21,553 nt of DNA from a virus. The position numbers and the translations under genes were made by a program. Below the pieces are notes generated by a model. That model ran no database searches. It worked only from the letters and a program-made list of their open reading frames with translations, and had not been told where the DNA came from. The stretch spans positions 1-21,553 of IMG/VR virus record IMGVR_UViG_3300010430_002587. One strand, written 5' to 3'. This document shows positions 3,870-21,161 of the stretch, in pieces. Position 1 is the stretch's first letter, and each line of letters opens with the position of its first letter.

Positions 3870-6839
3870 ATGACTGACCTACCTGCCTGCACCAAGTGCC
3901 CTCTGTACAAACACGCGACGAGTGTCTTGGTCCCGAGTAAGGGTTCTGAAGAACCTACCATCTTGTTCGTAGGTATCGCACCCGGCTGGAAAGAAGATCA
4001 GGAAGACGAAGCCTTCGTAGGTAAGCCAGGCAAGAAGCTGATGGAGCTTCTACGTGAGTCTGGTGTAGACCTAGACATGTGCCGGTTCACAAACCTTGTT
4101 CGATGCATCCCGTGGAAGAGCACGAAGGATCAGGACAGGACCAGGGAGCCGAACGAAGACGAGATATCAAAGTGCTCCAGCTATCTCCTAAAGGAGATAG
4201 CGATGTATGAGCCAAAGATCATTGTCCCTCTTGGAAAGGTGCCAGCAGGCTACTTCCTTCCACATATGAAGGACAAGATGAAGATCACCAAGGTCAGCGG
4301 TGTATCCTTCAACTGGGTCCATCCTACCACTGAAGATGAGTATACGGTTATTCCTACGCTGCACCCAGCAGCGTTGACACGCAGCGACCACTGGAAGTCC
4401 AAGGTGATGGAGGCATTCAATCTCATCAACCAATTGGCTACAGGAAGGTCTGCAGCGGATATCTTCGAAGACTGCGAGTATGAGTATCTAGATACCATCG
4501 ATAAGGTAGCTGCCTATGTAGATAAGGTGATTGCTGCTTACGAGAAGGATCCTGATACCGTTATCTCTGTTGATGCTGAGACCGGCTTCAAAGATCCTTT
4601 GCCAGAGGATTACGAGATTGATCGCTTCTCTGTTCTTCTCAATCCATTCAACCCTTACCACACCCTGATATCACTGCAGCTGAGCTACCTTCCTAAAGAA
4701 GGGGCGTTGATCCCGTTCTGGCATAAGGACAGTCCGTTCAAGGACTATGCGTCCATCGCTAGTATCGCTGAGCACATACAACGTCTAGTTGATGTAGTTC
4801 CAGTCATCGGACAGAACTTCAAGTTCGACTATCAAGTGCTTTACGTAATGCTCGGAGTCGTAGTAAAGCACTTCCTGTTCGACTCGATGTTGGCCCAGTA
4901 TCTTATCTACCAGAAGAGCCAGCCACTCAATCTAGAGTCTATGGCAGGCATGTATGTAGACATGCCGTTCTTCAAGAGCGAGATGCATAAGGCCCTAGAA
5001 GGTATCCCTGAGGAAATCAGGCACATGGGATACGTGGACCTGGACAAGCTCATCCGTTATGGCTGCGGAGACTCTGACGCTGTTGTGCGGCTCTACCGAT
5101 ACTGGCGTCCGATCTTGGAGGACAACGGTCTCTGGGATGTCTACCAGGACATTCTAAGGGACGCTACGGTGTCCTACTCTAAGATAGAGACCAACGGAAT
5201 GATGATCGATTCTGAGCGCCTAGAGAAGCTCAGGGTTGATTACACGAAGGAGCTTAACCAGCTTCTACGAGATATCCGTAAGTCAGACTACATCAAGCTT
5301 CTAGATGAGATTCGTCTTGAGGACTACTACAAGAAGGAAGAGCTAGGCTACGCAAGGGAGAATGCCAAGCGCGATGAGATTGGTAAGCCTCACGTAAAGC
5401 GCAAGAAGTATTCGGCTGAGGCGTGGGAAGCTAGAGAGCAAAAGATCATCGAGAAGCTAGCATTCAAGCCAAGCTCCTCAGATCAACTACGGTTGTTGTT
5501 CTACGACGATAGACTGATGGGATTCTCCTCTGATGGTAAAGGTCAGACGAAGAGCAAGCAAATCTCTGCGGACAAAGCTGCTCGTAAGAAGATCCTAGAA
5601 GACGCTCACAACGAAACAGCCTGGCTTAAGGAGAACGATCCAGACGATGACGAATCCATCGAAGCTCTGGAAGAGTGTGTATACCTCGTAGAGTCTATCA
5701 ACGATTGGGTAGGTAAGAACAAGCTTTACACTGCTTACATCAAGAAGGCTCCTGTGCTAATCCATGACAAGGGAGATATCAAGAGGGCCTGGCCTATCCC
5801 TCTGCCGCCTGAGGTATGCACTTGGTGCTTCCACGCCAACTTTAAGATCCACGGAACGGACACAGGACGTTTGTCTTGTGAGCATCCTAACCTACAACAG
5901 ATGCCACAGAAGTCTCTTATCAAGTGGATGTTTGTCTCTAGGTGGAAGGAGCAAGGTGGTGTTCTTCTTCAGGGTGACTACTCTCAGGCTGAGCTACGTG
6001 TAATCGCTAAGCTCGCTAATGAGACAGCAATGCTTGATGCATTCAACCGTGGAGAAGATATCCACATGTTTGTAGCTACGCTGGTCTTCGGTGCGCTGGG
6101 AATACCAGCGGATAAGATCACTAAGAAGATGCGTGGTATTGCTAAGCGTGCCTCTTTCGGGATTATCTACGGACAAGGTGCTAAGGCTTTGGCGTATGGG
6201 TTCGGAACTACGGTAGAAGAGGCTAAGGAAATCATCGCTACCCTCTATAGAGTCTTCCCCAACCTAAGAGGTTGGATGGATTCTAAGATCCAAGAGGCTA
6301 AGGACGAAGGACTCGTCACGACTCCAATGGGTCGTATCCGTTGGATAAAGCACGCTACGTCACGAGATGAGTTTACAGCTGCTGAAGCTGCTCGTAAGGC
6401 TGTGAATACCCCTATTCAATCAGCTGCTTCCGACTGGACGCTTTGTGCGCTAAACGCCATACAAAAGCGCTTCGATGAAGAGGGTCTTAGGAGTCTGATC
6501 GTAGCTACGATCCATGACTCGATCATGGTAGACGTATACCCTGGTGAGATGCAGATCGTCATGGAAATCATGCATGATGAAATGGTAGTCCAGATTCCTG
6601 AGCGGTTCGAATGGATCAAGGGAGTGCTGCCTAAGACTGACTTTGAGTTTGGCGTCAACTGGCAGGCGATGACAGATATCGAAACACAGACTGACCTAAG
6701 CTACAAGATCAAAGGTGAGTTTAAGGACATCAAGGGTAACCTAAAGCAGCTTTATCTATGTGGGGATGTAGAACAACTCGATGCTTACGTAGATGCAGAC
6801 AGCCCTGAAAACTCCTGGGCATTGGTGGACATAGGATGA
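3870..6839 (+). CDS. UDG-like domain fused to family A DNA polymerase with 3'-5' exonuclease (989 aa)
   Basis: Three domains in order. (1) Residues 1-about 190: uracil-DNA glycosylase superfamily, type 4/5, with the four Cys expected for a 4Fe-4S cluster (C7, C10, C79, C102), a GIAPG motif (35-39) followed by AFVGKPG, and HPAAL (H165). (2) About 225-415: DEDDy 3'-5' proofreading exonuclease with D235-x-E237, N316-x3-D320 and Y397-x3-D401. (3) C-terminal polymerase: motif A D703-YSQAELR, motif B R755-x3-K759-x3-F763-x3-YG, motif C H882-D883-S884. It is the main replicative polymerase of the phage. Odd points: Ile36 where family 4 UDGs have Glu, and Ser after the motif C Asp where E. coli Pol I has Glu. 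Phe at motif B (rather than Tyr) predicts discrimination against dideoxynucleotides. Nine bases separate it from the primase gene. Confidence 0.95.
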   Translation: MTDLPACTKCPLYKHATSVLVPSKGSEEPTILFVGIAPGWKEDQEDEAFVGKPGKKLMELLRESGVDLDMCRFTNLVRCIPWKSTKDQDRTREPNEDEISKCSSYLLKEIAMYEPKIIVPLGKVPAGYFLPHMKDKMKITKVSGVSFNWVHPTTEDEYTVIPTLHPAALTRSDHWKSKVMEAFNLINQLATGRSAADIFEDCEYEYLDTIDKVAAYVDKVIAAYEKDPDTVISVDAETGFKDPLPEDYEIDRFSVLLNPFNPYHTLISLQLSYLPKEGALIPFWHKDSPFKDYASIASIAEHIQRLVDVVPVIGQNFKFDYQVLYVMLGVVVKHFLFDSMLAQYLIYQKSQPLNLESMAGMYVDMPFFKSEMHKALEGIPEEIRHMGYVDLDKLIRYGCGDSDAVVRLYRYWRPILEDNGLWDVYQDILRDATVSYSKIETNGMMIDSERLEKLRVDYTKELNQLLRDIRKSDYIKLLDEIRLEDYYKKEELGYARENAKRDEIGKPHVKRKKYSAEAWEAREQKIIEKLAFKPSSSDQLRLLFYDDRLMGFSSDGKGQTKSKQISADKAARKKILEDAHNETAWLKENDPDDDESIEALEECVYLVESINDWVGKNKLYTAYIKKAPVLIHDKGDIKRAWPIPLPPEVCTWCFHANFKIHGTDTGRLSCEHPNLQQMPQKSLIKWMFVSRWKEQGGVLLQGDYSQAELRVIAKLANETAMLDAFNRGEDIHMFVATLVFGALGIPADKITKKMRGIAKRASFGIIYGQGAKALAYGFGTTVEEAKEIIATLYRVFPNLRGWMDSKIQEAKDEGLVTTPMGRIRWIKHATSRDEFTAAEAARKAVNTPIQSAASDWTLCALNAIQKRFDEEGLRSLIVATIHDSIMVDVYPGEMQIVMEIMHDEMVVQIPERFEWIKGVLPKTDFEFGVNWQAMTDIETQTDLSYKIKGEFKDIKGNLKQLYLCGDVEQLDAYVDADSPENSWALVDIG

Positions 6840-10473: not shown

Positions 10474-10495
10474 TAGCGAGTCAGCCTAAATAAGG

Positions 10496-10501
10496 TATAG
10501 T
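10496..10501 (+). promoter_or_regulatory. Possible -10 element in the gap before the VWA gene
   Basis: The 56-nt gap 10,474-10,529 contains TATAGT, one base from TATAAT, about 29 bases before ATG 10530, and the strong ribosome binding site AAGGAGG (10,514-10,520). No recognisable -35 hexamer is found 16-18 bp upstream. The gap itself is unusual in this packed region, which is the main reason to suspect a transcription start here. Confidence 0.25.
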
Positions 10502-10529
10502 GCCTTCAGCGAAAAGGAGGACTACAAGC

Positions 10530-12596
10530 ATGATGATTACGCACATGGCAAGCAGCACTGACCCTAAGGCTGTTGTCATCCCAGACGAGCGCCAGCAGTA
10601 TCTGATCGACTTCCTACAGAAGCTTGACAGAATGATGACTGGTCTTCCACTACGTCTTATCGTCAAGAACATTGGTGACCAGCATGGGTGGGCTGAGACT
10701 GATGGTAAGCGCCTTTGGATGGACTGGAATGTCCTGCGCAGGCCAATGAGGACTGAGACCCGTCTAGGGCTCAACTACCATGAGATTGGTCACTGTTACT
10801 ATGGTGACCCGCACTATGACCGTGACGTAGCTGACATGAAGCTGGCTTCCAACATCTTGTTGGACTGCCGCGACGAAACCCTGTTTGCTACTACGTATCC
10901 AGCGGTTATTCCGTACTTCGTATCGATGGTGCAAGAACTACTCATCAACAACCGTGGTCTGGAGGACTGCTCTAACATCTGGCCACTGCTTTATGGCAGG
11001 AAGTATCTCCCGTCCCCAGTTCGCTTCGTTTCCGCCCCTAGGTCTCACCCTCAGTGGGTAAAGGATACCAGCGCGGTTATCGACAAGTTCGTTATGCTGG
11101 CTCCAGAGCGTGCTAACGTTCCTGAGATGTTGGAGCTTACGAAGACGTTCCACGAGCAGCTACAGAGCTACCCAGGACACTCTCCGTTGGTGAATCCCGG
11201 TGGTGGTCGTCTTATTCGTGGCAGCCGTAAGGTGGTTAACGATATCTCTGATGAGATTCGTAGGAAGATCACCATCACCATTGACGCAGATCGTGGTGAG
11301 CTTAAGAAGCGGTTGCGGCTGCGTAAGGATGCTAAGGGAACTGCTGCGTCTGGTATCGGTAGTGGCGCAGCCTCTGGATCCAAACGTGATGTTGAGAAGC
11401 TTCTGGAAGAGGTTGATGTTGAAATCATTGAGCGTGTTTCCAATCGCTCTGGCGATATCACTACAGAGACCAAGACCCAATACCTTGGAACTGAAGCAGA
11501 GACTGTAGAGGTTGGTGATGACATCACGCCACGTGGTGACAGTGAGCTAGAGACCGAACATGCGGATAACGCCTCCAGTGGTGGTGCCATTGGTGGTGTC
11601 GGTGGTGCTGGTGGCGGGAGCTTACAAGCTGTCGAGTTGATCGAAGAAGATGATGACGATGTTGAGTTCACTGAGTATGTCTGGGTAGGCACTGATCTAG
11701 ACAATAGTTGGAAGCACGGTAAGGATCGGCTCAACCGGTTCAAGGATGTGCTAACTACCGATTCGGTTAAGGACATCGTTAGAAGTCTTGAGGCTGAGGT
11801 TCTGTTCGACACAGACCAGCTTGCTAAGGCTGGTTGGGATGGCTTCGGTGCAGTCACTGCCCACCTAAGGGGTATCCGCGACACCTTCGATAAGGACCTA
11901 CAGTTGTCCGCTAGAACGCTTCGTAAGCGCCACGCGTTAGGCAAGCGAGGGTCTGTATCCATGAAGGCAGCTATGAAGGCTGAGCGTCTACCAGACAACA
12001 GCATCTTCAGCAGCAGCACTAACTATCTAACGCGCCACAAGTTGGAGCTTGAAGTAGTGATGTTGATTGACGCCTCTGGCTCAATGGACAAGGTTATTCA
12101 ACAAGCCATGAAGGTTCAGTGGGTCATCGGATCTGCGTTCGAGAAGCGTGGAGCTAAGGTTACGCTCATTCCATTCAACAACAAGGCTAGGGATCCCCTC
12201 AAGGGACGTGACGACAAGTTCTCTGACAGGATCTTCCCATACTGCCCAGCGAGCGGTGGGACACAGCCCACAGCGGCTCTATCAACCGCTCAGGAGATTT
12301 TCGAGAAGTCTGGTAACAGGATGAAGCTCCTGTTCATTCTCACCGATGGTGCTTGGAACAACGCTCACTGGAGCCACAAGATCATCGATAACATGAATCA
12401 CCGTGGCGTCATGTCTGTGCTTATCTTCATGGGAGGAGACGCGCACGATATGTCCTCGATGAAGAAGACTCACTATCACCACTGTAAGGAAGGGTTCCGA
12501 GTCAGTGGGATGAAGAAGCTATTGCCTGAAATGCGCAAGACCTTCTTGAAGGAATTTAACAAGGCGATTGTTCGCACATTGAGGCGTTACTACTAG
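10530..12596 (+). CDS. HExxH metallopeptidase-like / von Willebrand factor A protein, CobT-like (688 aa)
   Basis: Two recognisable ends. N-terminal: LNYHEIGHCYYGD with H84-E-x2-H88, the HExxH zinc-peptidase motif, in a region rich in helices (as in DUF2201-type putative metallopeptidases). C-terminal: a VWA domain with complete MIDAS, D514-x-S516-x-S518, T578 (in GGTQP) and D606 (in ILTDG), which binds a divalent metal and a protein ligand. Between them lie a charged helical region and a Gly/Ser-rich hinge (about 11,571-11,622). This is the layout of CobT-like partners of MoxR/CobS AAA+ ATPases, and such an ATPase is the next gene. Cobalt chelation is not implied since no corrin genes are present. 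ATG 10530 follows AAGGAGG by nine bases; an in-frame GTG at 10,500 lies before that site and is rejected as start. Confidence 0.85.
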   Translation: MMITHMASSTDPKAVVIPDERQQYLIDFLQKLDRMMTGLPLRLIVKNIGDQHGWAETDGKRLWMDWNVLRRPMRTETRLGLNYHEIGHCYYGDPHYDRDVADMKLASNILLDCRDETLFATTYPAVIPYFVSMVQELLINNRGLEDCSNIWPLLYGRKYLPSPVRFVSAPRSHPQWVKDTSAVIDKFVMLAPERANVPEMLELTKTFHEQLQSYPGHSPLVNPGGGRLIRGSRKVVNDISDEIRRKITITIDADRGELKKRLRLRKDAKGTAASGIGSGAASGSKRDVEKLLEEVDVEIIERVSNRSGDITTETKTQYLGTEAETVEVGDDITPRGDSELETEHADNASSGGAIGGVGGAGGGSLQAVELIEEDDDDVEFTEYVWVGTDLDNSWKHGKDRLNRFKDVLTTDSVKDIVRSLEAEVLFDTDQLAKAGWDGFGAVTAHLRGIRDTFDKDLQLSARTLRKRHALGKRGSVSMKAAMKAERLPDNSIFSSSTNYLTRHKLELEVVMLIDASGSMDKVIQQAMKVQWVIGSAFEKRGAKVTLIPFNNKARDPLKGRDDKFSDRIFPYCPASGGTQPTAALSTAQEIFEKSGNRMKLLFILTDGAWNNAHWSHKIIDNMNHRGVMSVLIFMGGDAHDMSSMKKTHYHHCKEGFRVSGMKKLLPEMRKTFLKEFNKAIVRTLRRYY

Positions 12597-12604
12597 CGGA
12601 AAAA

Positions 12605-12613
12605 TGGTCTAAT
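12605..12613 (+). promoter_or_regulatory. Candidate extended -10 promoter before the AAA+ gene
   Basis: In the 64-nt gap 12,597-12,660, TG-G-TCTAAT matches an extended -10 with one mismatch to TATAAT. The same bases can form a weak five-pair stem (TGGTC...GGCCA with a TAATA loop, including one G-T pair), so they might instead be a minor hairpin. No clear -35. The gap also holds the AAA+ ribosome binding site GGAGG (12,648-12,652), eight bases before ATG 12661. Confidence 0.25.
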
Positions 12614-12660
12614 AGGCCAGTCGAAGTAAACCACCACCCAAAGAAACGGAGGATGACAAC

Positions 12661-13752
12661 ATGACACAACTTCCCGATATCACCGGACACGTTGACCAGA
12701 ATCGAAAGAAGAGGGCTCGTCTGGCTCTCATGGACTTGCTGGAGGTTCCGCCCATCAGTTGGTTCGATACCTACATTACCCGCACCCTTCCGGGTGGCTA
12801 TAAGGACATTGACGTGTTCGTGCAGGCTTGCCTGCTCCAGCGCGCTACTCTGCTCTTCGGCCCAACCGGTGCTGGTAAGACCCTAGTGGGTCTCGCTGTC
12901 GCTGCTTTCTTGAAGCGGCGTTACTCGTCCATCAACTTCCACGGAGGCGTTACGGCTGACGCCTTCATTGGTCGCTGGATTCCGTGCTCGCAGTCCGGTA
13001 TGCCCACCATTGAAGAGCTTCGTAAGAAGTTTGATGGTGACAGCAACTTGGTGAACGCTTATATCCACAAGTACAGGATCAACTACAAGTGGGTTGATGG
13101 TCACCTGACCGACTTCTTCCGCAACGGTGGTGTCCTCGATCTTGCGGAAATCAACATGGCTCCTCCGTCTGTGACAGCGTTCCTGTTCCAGATGTTGGAC
13201 GACCGTTCGCAGATCGTGCTGGACGACAAGGATGGCGAGGTTGTCCACGCCCACCCTGACTTCTGGTGCATCGGTAACTACAACGAGGGCTACGCTGGCA
13301 CTGAGGAGTTGAACGACGCGCTGCTTCGTCGCTTCCCTGTCAAGTTCTCCTGGGGTTACTCCGACGAGGTTGAGAACGCTCTCATCTCCAACGAGGCTGT
13401 CAAGAAGGTAGCTACTAAGCTCCGTGAGTCGGACGAGTGCCGTAAGGACATCGGAACTGCTGACCTGAAGAACTTCTGCGAGAACATCGATCTGTTCGGT
13501 GCTGACCTTGCTGGAGAGATGTTCGTCGCTGGGTTCGATCCGCACGAGCGCCAGGCTGTGGGAGAGGTTGTCCGCAACGAATTCTCCAGCTTGGCCTCCA
13601 CGCTTCAGCAGCAGGCAGAGCAGGAAGCTATGGAAGCTGATGCTGCCTGGGGTGCCGGTCTCGGACAGGCTGCCGCCACTGCCGCCACTGCTGCCGCTGT
13701 TGCTGCTGCTGCTGCCGCTGCTACGCCTCCTGGGGACACGCCACCGTTCTAA
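12661..13752 (+). CDS. MoxR/CobS-type AAA+ ATPase (363 aa)
   Basis: AAA+ chaperone-like ATPase expected to form a ring and remodel a target selected by a VWA partner. Seen: Walker A GPTGAGKT (67-74), FHGGVTADAFIGRW (pre-sensor loop region), then G-G-V-L-D-L-A-E-I-N-M-A-P-P where MoxR proteins read LLDEINRAPP, sensor 1 CIGNYNEG, and LNDALLRRFPVKF with the arginine finger position. Odd: aligned this way, the Walker B Asp is Ala162 while the catalytic Glu (E163) is kept. The C-terminus is a poly-Ala stretch with PPGDTPPF. Codons prefer C/G endings and CTA/CTAG are almost absent, in contrast to the adjacent VWA gene. Strong ribosome binding site GGAGG at 12,648-12,652. It is followed directly by a terminator, so the VWA and AAA+ genes form one block. 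Confidence 0.88.
   Translation: MTQLPDITGHVDQNRKKRARLALMDLLEVPPISWFDTYITRTLPGGYKDIDVFVQACLLQRATLLFGPTGAGKTLVGLAVAAFLKRRYSSINFHGGVTADAFIGRWIPCSQSGMPTIEELRKKFDGDSNLVNAYIHKYRINYKWVDGHLTDFFRNGGVLDLAEINMAPPSVTAFLFQMLDDRSQIVLDDKDGEVVHAHPDFWCIGNYNEGYAGTEELNDALLRRFPVKFSWGYSDEVENALISNEAVKKVATKLRESDECRKDIGTADLKNFCENIDLFGADLAGEMFVAGFDPHERQAVGEVVRNEFSSLASTLQQQAEQEAMEADAAWGAGLGQAAATAATAAAVAAAAAAATPPGDTPPF
13669..13723 (+). repeat. GCN (Ala) trinucleotide-rich tract at the end of the AAA+ gene
   Basis: An imperfect run of GCC/GCT/GCG codons broken by a few ACT and one GTT encodes an Ala/Thr-rich tail just before PPGDTPPF. Such a tract can slip during replication and would be expected to vary in length between relatives. 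It lies outside the AAA+ domain and is probably a flexible linker. Confidence 0.6.
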
Positions 13753-13759
13753 GGAACAC

Positions 13760-13790
13760 GCTGGGGGCCTTCGGGCCCCCAGCAGCGTTT
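13760..13790 (+). terminator. Hairpin terminator with UUCG loop
   Basis: A perfect 10-bp GC-rich stem (13,760-13,769 with 13,774-13,783) closed by a C(UUCG)G tetraloop, a very stable cap. It starts eight bases after the AAA+ stop codon and is followed by AGCGTTT, a poor T-tract. It probably ends transcription of the VWA/AAA+ block or protects its 3' end, and it sits only eight bases ahead of the tRNA. Confidence 0.85.
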
Positions 13791-13791
13791 A

Positions 13792-13865
13792 GGGCCCATA
13801 GCTCAGTTGGTCAGAGCACGCGACTCATAATCGCATGGTCGGGGGTTCAAGTCCCTCTGGGCCCA
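13792..13865 (+). tRNA. tRNA with CAU anticodon, most likely tRNA-Ile2 (AUA-reading)
   Basis: Full cloverleaf by hand: acceptor GGGCCCA (13,792-13,798) pairs perfectly with TGGGCCC (13,858-13,864); D-arm GCTC...GAGC (13,801-13,817); anticodon arm 13,819-13,835 with loop CTCATAA, anticodon CAT at 13,826-13,828; five-base variable region; T-arm with TTCAAGT loop (13,846-13,852); discriminator A13865. CCA is not encoded (TTG follows). CAU could be Met, initiator or Ile2. The anticodon arm and following bases (GCGACTCATAATCGC.TGGTCG) closely match what I recall of E. coli tRNA-Ile2, whose C34 is converted to lysidine by host TilS, so Ile2 is favoured. It would support AUA codons, which occur in these genes (for example codon 19 of the primase). 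Confidence 0.93.
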
Positions 13866-13876
13866 TTGGAGTAGGC

Positions 13877-14206
13877 ATGATAAAGGTTGATGATAGAGGC
13901 TACGCTACCCAGTACGACAAGGATGGGAAGATTGTAGCTCACTATAATCGTGACGACATGCTGATGCTGCATCGCACGTTTGAGAACCGCTATTGGCCTT
14001 ACGCAAAGAATGTAGTTGACCCTAACGTAGAGGAAGCAGCTAAGGCAGCTTTCATCGAAGCTTGGGGCTACTACAAAGAAGCTTTTGAGAGGAAGCTGAG
14101 GGCTATGGAGCGTAAGTATGACAGACTGTGCATCTGCCACCACTGTCAGGGGCCTCGCTTCAAAGATGAATACTGCACATCTAATTCGCCTGGATGTGAC
14201 CTATGA
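13877..14206 (+). CDS. Hypothetical protein with C-terminal Cys cluster (109 aa)
   Basis: ATG 13877 follows GGAG (13,868-13,871) eleven bases after the tRNA end; an earlier in-frame GTG/ATG would run through the tRNA and is rejected. The N-terminal part has GYATQYDKDGKIVAHY, a beta-hairpin-like repeat of aromatic/Gly turns, then a helical middle (VEEAAKAAFIEAWGYYKEAFERKLRAMERKYD, residues 51-82). The C-terminus carries C85, C87, C90, C100 and C107, likely a small zinc site. No family recognised. It overlaps the next gene as ATGA. Confidence 0.75.
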   Translation: MIKVDDRGYATQYDKDGKIVAHYNRDDMLMLHRTFENRYWPYAKNVVDPNVEEAAKAAFIEAWGYYKEAFERKLRAMERKYDRLCICHHCQGPRFKDEYCTSNSPGCDL

Positions 14207-19645: not shown

Positions 19646-20613
19646 CAACCGTTCTAGTTGATGGGCACCACATGCTCCATCGGGTAGCTTTCATACCCGA
19701 GCTACAGAAGCTCTCCACACGTAAGGGTGTCCCCACAGGCCCCTGCTTCGGCTTCCTCAGAGTCCTCAGGGCCACGCTGAATCGCTTCAAGGCCACAGAC
19801 TGCATAGTCGTCTGGGACAGCGGTAGGAGCGCTTACAGGCAGAAGCTCTACCCAGAATACAAGGCTAACAGAGATGAAGGTGATAAGCCTGCTGCTCTAG
19901 ATAACATTGATGACCAGAAGGATATCCTTCAAGAGGTTCTACCGTATCTCAACACTAAGCAACTAATCATTGGTGGCTACGAAGGTGATGACCTTCTAGC
20001 TCTACTAATCGAGACACTAGAGGATGAAGACGATAGGATAGTCGTAGTTACAGGGGACAAGGATCTGCTCCAGCTAGTAAGGCCAGGTGTTGATGTATAC
20101 CGCCCAATTGCTGACCAACTTGTTACTGACTTTGATTTCACTACTCAAGTCGGGGTTCCTGTTTCTCTTTTCACACTGCGTAAAGCTCTTGTAGGAGATA
20201 AGTCTGACAACATCGATGGTATACGTGGCGTCGGTGAGAAGACAGCTAACAAACTATTAGAGGAAGTCTACGCTGATGAGGATGGCTGGTGGCAGGACAT
20301 CGAACTTGCCGAAGACCTAAGTGAGTTTAAGGAGCACTGCGCTGAGCACAAAGGCAAGACAGCCAAGCGTATTGCAGAAGACTGGCCAGTAGTTACTCGC
20401 AACCTTAAGCTCATGGATATCATAAACTACTTCCCTTTCACAACCAAGGACCGTAAGAAGGCCAAAGCTGTTGTAGAGATGGATATTCGTGGGATGGCTA
20501 CAGACATTGAGTTAATCAAGATGTTGGGTAAGTGGGAGTTCCACGATTTCACATCTAAGTTCATGCAGTGGATTCGCCCGTTTAAGAGGCTGTCGTGCGT
20601 CTCGACCATATAG
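19642..20613 (+). CDS. 5'-3' exonuclease, FEN/PolI N-terminal domain family (323 aa)
   Basis: PIN-like fold nuclease that removes RNA primers and 5' flaps. Seen in order: LVDGHHMLHR (metal ligand D7), VVWDSGRSAYRQKLYPEYKANR, EGDDLLA and VTGDKDLLQL (acidic metal cluster), and GDKSDNIDGIRGVGEKTANKLL, the helix-hairpin/H3TH DNA-binding motif. This supplies the 5' nuclease that the UDG-polymerase fusion lacks, as in many phages with separate genes. ATG 19642 is preferred over in-frame GTG 19627 because it makes the usual ATGA junction and has GAGAAG eight bases before. The 3' end overlaps the VOC gene by 19 nt. Confidence 0.92.
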   Translation: MTTVLVDGHHMLHRVAFIPELQKLSTRKGVPTGPCFGFLRVLRATLNRFKATDCIVVWDSGRSAYRQKLYPEYKANRDEGDKPAALDNIDDQKDILQEVLPYLNTKQLIIGGYEGDDLLALLIETLEDEDDRIVVVTGDKDLLQLVRPGVDVYRPIADQLVTDFDFTTQVGVPVSLFTLRKALVGDKSDNIDGIRGVGEKTANKLLEEVYADEDGWWQDIELAEDLSEFKEHCAEHKGKTAKRIAEDWPVVTRNLKLMDIINYFPFTTKDRKKAKAVVEMDIRGMATDIELIKMLGKWEFHDFTSKFMQWIRPFKRLSCVSTI

Positions 20614-21161
20614 CCTATAGAGTAGTTGACCGATGGAAGACAGCCGAGTTCTTCATCAAAGCATTTGGTTACACCATGCAGGAAGAGTTTAAGCCTTACG
20701 GTGACGACTCTGTTCAGTGCATAGCGCTACGTCCATCGGAGCGACAGGAGCTTGAGTGGGTTCCGTTCCTCATCTCCTACGGTGGTCCTCCTGAGGCTAT
20801 GCATCCAGTTAAGTATCACCTAGCGCCTGAGATTTTCATCTCAGATGGTAAACCTGATTCAGTCGTTGGAAAATGGGTCAAAGATCGTAATGGCATAGGA
20901 GGCATTCACCATTTAGCATATGAGGTGTACGACGTACAGGAGGAAGTTGATCGCTGGCTTGAGAAGGGTTGGGGAAACTTTCTATCTGATGACGTTCTTA
21001 CATGTCCTGGCATTAAGCAAATCTTCTCGGAAGAGATGGGAATTACTGGTGGGATGATCTTTGAGTTTATAGAGCGTCGTGCAGACCGTGGGTTCTGCAA
21101 GGAGAACGTTAAAGCTCTGATGGATAGCACCAGAAAGAACAACGATGCCGGTAACGATTGA
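20595..21161 (+). CDS. VOC-superfamily (glyoxalase/dioxygenase fold) protein (188 aa)
   Basis: Two vicinal-oxygen-chelate modules: LDHIAYRVVDR with H5 opens the first and IHHLAYEVYDV with H106 opens the second at the matching position; IFEFIE with E157 (or E160) gives the usual late acidic metal ligand. The pattern resembles methylmalonyl-CoA epimerase, glyoxalase and 4-hydroxyphenylpyruvate dioxygenase relatives; the reaction cannot be deduced. GTG 20595 is required to include the first strand and follows AAGAGG (20,584-20,589). It overlaps the exonuclease gene by 19 nt, so it is part of the phage unit and not a stray insertion. VOC genes are uncommon among phage replication genes. Confidence 0.82.
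   Translation: MRLDHIAYRVVDRWKTAEFFIKAFGYTMQEEFKPYGDDSVQCIALRPSERQELEWVPFLISYGGPPEAMHPVKYHLAPEIFISDGKPDSVVGKWVKDRNGIGGIHHLAYEVYDVQEEVDRWLEKGWGNFLSDDVLTCPGIKQIFSEEMGITGGMIFEFIERRADRGFCKENVKALMDSTRKNNDAGND

Follow-up and report, generated by a model that had tools for sequence, protein, structure and literature searches.

The gene pair and its predicted proteins

The window analyzed here, the whole 21,553-base stretch of virus record IMGVR_UViG_3300010430_002587 in IMG/VR, is a phage replication region. Our subject is two adjacent genes in it (positions 10,530 to 13,752), which encode a protein combining a predicted N-terminal zincin-like domain with a VWA domain, and a MoxR-type AAA+ ATPase. 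Judged by their Pfam and PHROG matches both genes are real, and the pair is a divergent member of a known and widespread phage gene pair, which is usually mislabelled as vitamin B12 machinery. Upstream of it lie, in this order, genes for a helicase, a DnaB-like helicase, a primase, a DNA polymerase A with a uracil-DNA glycosylase domain, a gp32-like single-stranded DNA-binding protein (SSB) and UvsX/RecA; a tRNA-Met gene and, later, MazG-like and 5'-3' exonuclease genes are found on the 3' side. Positions of the main features are listed in Table 1.

The motif residues given in the initial annotation, i.e., H84, E85 and H88 of HExxH and D514, S516, S518, T578 and D606 of the metal ion-dependent adhesion site (MIDAS), are all present when numbered from the ATG at 10530, and a strong ribosome binding site can be read before each of the two ATGs (AGGAGG and CGGAGG). 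Of the terminator thought to close the pair, the strong GC-rich hairpin was recovered, but the plus strand has no T-run there, and a terminator-like score was obtained on the minus strand only. Stretches similar to GTATAGTG (10494-10501) and GGTCTAATAGG (12606-12618) lie 5' of both genes and recur in the sister record L349; these are possible phage promoters.

Table 1. Features of the zincin-VWA/AAA+ locus in the window
Feature	Position	Strand	Evidence or remark
Shine-Dalgarno AGGAGG, VWA gene	10515..10520	+	Direct reading, 9 nucleotides 5' of ATG 10530
Zincin-VWA protein, 688 amino acids	10530..12596	+	Open reading frame (ORF) with Pfam VWA E=1.9e-7; tblastn relatives; AlphaFold2 (AF2) model
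N-terminal zincin-like domain, residues about 17-216	10578..11177	+	AF2 predicted local distance difference test (pLDDT) 87, predicted template modelling score (pTM) 0.83; best PDB neighbours are zinc metallopeptidases
HEIGH motif, H84-H88	10779..10793	+	Within predicted helix 75-91; motif conserved in 189/190 full-length viral relatives
D112 (candidate third zinc ligand) to E116	10863..10877	+	Predicted helix 101-122
Low-confidence linker, residues 222-435, partly acidic	11193..11834	+	pLDDT mostly <50
VWA domain core, residues 506-655	12045..12494	+	Pfam; Rea1/MDN1 MIDAS and NorD VWA as structural neighbours
MIDAS DxSxS, D514-S518	12069..12083 (T578 at 12261, D606 at 12345)	+	Each residue retained in 58-59/60 aligned relatives
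Shine-Dalgarno CGGAGG, AAA+ gene	12647..12652	+	Direct reading, before ATG 12661
MoxR-type AAA+ ATPase, 363 amino acids	12661..13752	+	AAA_5 E=4.8e-18 (Pfam); phrog_249 (phage CobS-like AAA+) profile E=8.7e-30; PDB Midasin, NorQ, CbbQ
Walker A GPTGAGKT	12859..12882	+	Intact
Walker B end, A162-E163 (LDLAEIN)	13144..13149	+	Asp to Ala; catalytic Glu retained
GC-rich hairpin 3' of the pair	13760..13783	+	10-bp stem, fold z=-2.9
tRNA-Met (CAT)	13792..13865	+	ARAGORN; also 3' of the pair in L349

As the Foldseek matches of the full-length model were VWA domains, the N-terminal domain was folded alone. In the resulting model, a helix and three strands are followed by the helix that carries HExxH in the position of the active-site helix and by the next helix. 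Its PDB neighbours are selecase, abylysin, jannalysin, M48 peptidases, ZMPSTE24, BlaR1, Spartan, Wss1, LTA4 hydrolase and ArdC; nearly all of the leading ones are zincins, with modest scores. The model resembles zinc metallopeptidases. In our scans and in the record there was no match to the metallopeptidase-VWA family DUF2201 (PF13203), to which a distant homology may still exist. The VWA domain together with the preceding helix is closest to Rea1/MDN1 MIDAS (Z 20.9, root mean square deviation 2.9 over 202 residues), and the NorD VWA domain is also similar (Z 17.8, 4.6 over 220 residues). The C-terminus RTLRRYY is common to the window and L349.

By sequence, the product of the second gene is a CbbQ/NorQ/Midasin-like (MoxR-type) ATPase, these three being its nearest proteins in a PDB comparison. 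It combines an AAA_5-type domain, Walker A and the Walker B Glu with an adjacent VWA protein having an intact MIDAS, as expected of a MoxR-type ATPase with a VWA co-chaperone. The Walker B Asp position is Ala in the window and L349 and mostly D or N among relatives, and an insert of about 28 residues before WVDG is present in these two and absent from the other aligned relatives. The AAA+ gene also exists outside the VWA pair, because its neighbours differ in other phages: in Microbacterium phages Zooman and Cece a related AAA+ gene lies directly 5' of rIIA-like/rIIB-like genes with no adjacent VWA partner, and in Acinetobacter phage AM24 and Staphylococcus phage Stab23 it is followed by a protein of 280-300 amino acids that has neither HExxH nor DxSxS.

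Three further observations concern other genes of the window. The ORF listed from 13835 overlaps the tRNA-Met gene and probably begins in fact at the ATG near 13877 (region 13792-13878). At 3870-6839, a single chain combines DNA polymerase A with a 3'-5' exonuclease domain and, at its N-terminus (residues 23-177), a uracil-DNA glycosylase domain (PF03167). A protein of the Glyoxalase/dioxygenase superfamily (VOC) is encoded at 20595-21161 inside the replication region (PF13669, E=2.4e-7).

Conservation of the predicted active site and of the pairing

The closest annotated relatives belong to Gordonia and Brevibacterium phages, and more distant ones were found in DSL-LC01, Sixama, Phendrix, Haloarcula virus HCTV-16, RHEph10, S-SCSM2R, Vibrio phage JSF27 and SSU5-type phage-plasmids. 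Used alone, the window VWA protein found no relatives in an IMG/VR scan and no match in a plasmid search. In the alignment searches of IMG/VR, alignments A1 and A2 were too divergent and the smaller A3 and A4 succeeded; they yielded three sets of distinct proteins, with 104 window-like, 19 Rhizobium/SSU5-like and 68 cyanophage-like members. The HExxH motif is present in 18/19 and 68/68 of the latter two sets, which were collected with patterns outside HExxH, and in 103/104 of the window-like set, which is biased since its search patterns included HE (GLNYHE) or LEDQRIE. The two exceptions are not whole sequences: L118, which at first seemed to lack HExxH, is a contig that has been cut, and L259, which seemed so too, an ORF that is either split or short. 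Among full-length distinct viral relatives, 189 of 190 have the motif at a constant place; from this constancy and the zincin-like topology of the model, we judge that HExxH in the window protein is not a chance occurrence. In addition, relatives of one phage protein occur in about 1000 plasmid records, and the pair is present, with HEVAH as its motif, in phage-plasmids of E. coli. For comparison, cellular CobT proteins, all alphaproteobacterial or close, were collected with a pattern outside HExxH and an approximate CobT VWA sequence as bait, only the real sequences returned being used; HExxH was found in none of the 80.

An AAA+ gene lies within 500 bp in 102 of the 104 window-like cases; for the other two sets it shares the locus in 19/19 (Rhizobium/SSU5-like) and 58/68 (cyanophage-like) cases. 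The two genes therefore behave as a conserved unit, as had been supposed from the window. Neither of the outcomes named initially as refuting that reading was seen: the modelled N-terminal domain has a peptidase-like fold with a candidate third ligand, and the VWA homologues do not mostly occur apart from an AAA+ gene. In annotated relatives the pair sits, as in the window, with polymerase, helicase, primase, recombinase, SSB or sliding-clamp genes, and no structural gene family was prominent when 93 neighbour proteins were tallied by PHROG.

The second helix of the relatives has the form N-x-L-E-D-Q-R-I-E. An acidic residue, D or E, occupies position 112 in every one of the 188 viral relatives that bear HExxH and could be read there; 79 cellular CobT proteins have Q, N or R instead, and L349 has S. 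The acidity of this position and HExxH have been lost together in both lineages without HExxH. This covariation and the place in the next helix make D112 the best candidate for the predicted third zinc ligand, a residue that the initial annotation had proposed to look for. Both D112 and E116 are retained in the window, and the acidic residue four positions on recalls the ExxxD pattern of M48-type gluzincins. E111 was rejected for this role, being present in cellular CobT, which has no HExxH, and missing from the window and Vibrio phage JSF27, which have it.

L349 provides a natural loss of the catalytic residues. Its VWA and AAA+ proteins are 52% and 71% identical to those of the window, its gene order and downstream tRNA-Met match, and the two group in the tree with 100/100 support, their common branch being long (3.55 changes per column). 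At positions 4096-4116 it encodes NYQQLAR in place of the window NYHEIGH, i.e., H/E/H has become Q/Q/R by several independent base changes, while MIDAS and Walker A are intact. Since H/E/H was lost with MIDAS and the ATPase intact, proteolysis is dispensable for persistence of the pair in the window lineage.

Proposed function and competing explanations

We favour, with some reserve, a phage-encoded remodelling machine made of a MoxR-type AAA+ ATPase and a partner with a zincin domain, whose client probably belongs to replication or nucleotide metabolism. In its favour, the AAA+ protein is nearest to Midasin, NorQ and CbbQ and the VWA domain to Rea1/MDN1 MIDAS and NorD, both of which are partners of AAA+ modules. 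The conserved pairing, the zincin-like model, the acidic position 112, the loss of catalytic residues in L349 and the replication and nucleotide context, all described above, speak for it as well. The AAA+ protein would form a hexameric ring on which the VWA domain of the partner docks, and the client would be held by the long flexible linker and the zincin domain. For the remodelling itself NorQD may serve as the model: there the VWA domain reaches into the AAA+ pore with a finger, and a linker is subjected to ATP-driven twisting (PMC13036017). The phage machine would likewise use ATP to pull and twist its client. The long linker (222-435) and the conserved C-terminus RTLRRYY are compatible with such a machine. 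Cleavage of the client by the zincin domain is probable as well in most phages; in the window lineage it would be optional, the active site of the sister having been lost. Going by the gene neighbourhood, the client would most likely be a protein that takes part in replication or nucleotide metabolism, encoded by either the phage or the host.

Several points weigh against this proposal. The zincin matches of the N-terminal domain are weak (best Foldseek E 0.16, Z about 6.5), so that the fold assignment leans on the motif and the predominance of zincins among the top matches. The window site is formally complete (H84, E85, H88 and D112), yet it departs from the consensus at two positions, with L at 111 and D at 115 against E and I in nearly all relatives. 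The change of the Walker B Asp to Ala could impair ATP hydrolysis. Genome position is weak evidence on the identity of a client, and the window record is a fragment.

It is possible, though doubtful, that the N-terminal domain of the window lineage is already a pseudopeptidase serving as adaptor only, with HEIGH as a relic; this is a sub-case of the remodelling machine, and the confidence in one does not exclude that in the other. The two substitutions E111 to L and I115 to D, the Q/Q/R of L349, the long branch and the parallel loss in cellular CobT all agree with it. However, the window retains H84, E85, H88, D112 and E116, a set that drift would soon erase.

Virion assembly, in which the pair would be a chaperone with a processing protease, was proposed for jumbo phages by analogy with the Acidianus two-tailed virus (ATV) (Iyer et al., 2021; PMC7824862). 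The architecture described there is the same, and ATV ORF892 is among the structural matches, but we consider this role unlikely for the pair, since it adjoins the replication genes mentioned above in the window and in annotated relatives, structural families are not prominent in the PHROG tally, and L349 does without catalysis. Just as unlikely is a device for targeted proteolysis or anti-defence, in which a host protein selected by the AAA+/VWA module is cleaved by the zincin. Retention of HExxH and acidic position 112 across very divergent phages speaks for it, as does the presence of ArdC and of the DNA-protein crosslink proteases Spartan and Wss1 among the PDB neighbours; the sister L349 has nevertheless dropped the motif while retaining the rest, and association with defence genes was not seen. 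Of the possibilities raised initially, targeted proteolysis gained a predicted peptidase fold and a candidate ligand and was weakened for the window lineage by the loss in L349, and for an anti-defence device we found nothing pointing specifically that way.

An adenosylcobalamin-dependent ribonucleotide reductase (RNR) gene lies 1.9-7.4 kb downstream, always convergent, in 22/22 measured long records of the window-like clade (L220-L348, G002-G024), which are not independent evidence because they form one syntenic clade. The longer RNRs of cyanophage-like and SSU5 records (about 770 amino acids) are below class II cut-offs, and no RNR match was found in Gordonia phage records; the link to B12 is therefore not general. 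A rather improbable reading takes the "CobST" pair as a motor-driven zinc protease in phage replication or nucleotide metabolism that might, for example, mature or reactivate the nearby RNR, cellular CobT being a relative whose protease site was lost.

In the proposal of Liu et al. (2021; PMC8651126), the AAA+ and VWA proteins act as viral CobS and CobT with a hijacked host CobN, raising cobalamin supply; the peptidase label is called mistaken there, and viral cobST is reported in tailed viruses of eight orders. Besides the RNR neighbourhood, this reading is favoured by RHEph10, whose N-terminal and VWA domains match Pfam CobT PF06213 (E=6.5e-6) and CobT_C PF11775 (E=4.9e-35), respectively. 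The window protein matches neither model. In hhalign comparisons the window-like and Rhizobium-type N-domains are related (probability 97.9, E 4.6e-13), and matches to the cellular CobT N-domain are weak (0.7% for window-like, 16.6% for Rhizobium-type); homology to cellular CobT thus rests on the RHEph10 match to PF06213. CobN was sought without success in 39 viral records that carry the pair, in the window record, itself a fragment, and in an E. coli control genome, although E. coli is host to phage-plasmids with the pair. The control genome of Caulobacter vibrioides has the CobT family but gave no match to CobN, a hint that cellular CobT may have a function other than cobalt insertion. With HExxH kept in 189/190 phage proteins and absent from 80/80 cellular CobT proteins, no CobN in the searched records or E. 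coli, and class II RNR not general, a chelatase role is unlikely for the phage pair in general and a CobN helper in particular is most improbable; the warning that chelatase labels would mislead was sound.

Comparison with known systems

The idea that this is an undescribed system was not borne out, since the architecture is found in Iyer et al. (PMC7824862), Liu et al. (PMC8651126) and PHROGs (phrog_249, 459, 1576 and 5298); before these, a MoxR chaperonin of two subunits had been named in a paper on a Bacillus phage (PMC2147016). The pair is abundant, belonging to the cyanophage core genome (PMC8651126) and occurring in the plasmid records and archaeal viruses. What is new here is the contrast in HExxH between phage proteins and CobT, the absence of CobN in the records searched, and the natural loss in L349. 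These separate the conflicting readings of 2021, and protease, chelatase and pure remodelling functions are thereby open to testing with point mutants.

With NorQ/NorD, CbbQ/CbbO and Midasin the window pair shares the AAA+ sequence (NorQ, CbbQ, Midasin) and the VWA fold (NorD, Midasin); we know of no zincin domain in these systems. Alphaproteobacterial CobS/CobT is distantly homologous in the CobT N-domain and VWA, via RHEph10, and differs in having no HExxH and Q/N/R at position 112. The pair of Gordonia and Brevibacterium phages (Hanem, GMA6, Cantare), annotated as CobT-like or hypothetical, is 30-35% (AAA+) and 28-32% (VWA protein) identical to the window over the matched parts and has the order AAA+ to VWA, unlike the window. 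The pair in group 2.2 jumbo phages (ASV44729.1/ASV44728.2; PMC7824862), likened here by description, consists of a MoxR AAA+ gene and a vWA protein with a fused N-terminal metallopeptidase domain, while the window pair lies in a replication module in the order VWA to AAA+. Finally, viral CobST of HCTV-16, cyanophages and RHEph10 has a homologous N-domain, VWA domain and AAA+ protein with HExxH intact; it was read as a cobaltochelatase (PMC8651126), whereas the present data favour an intact zincin site.

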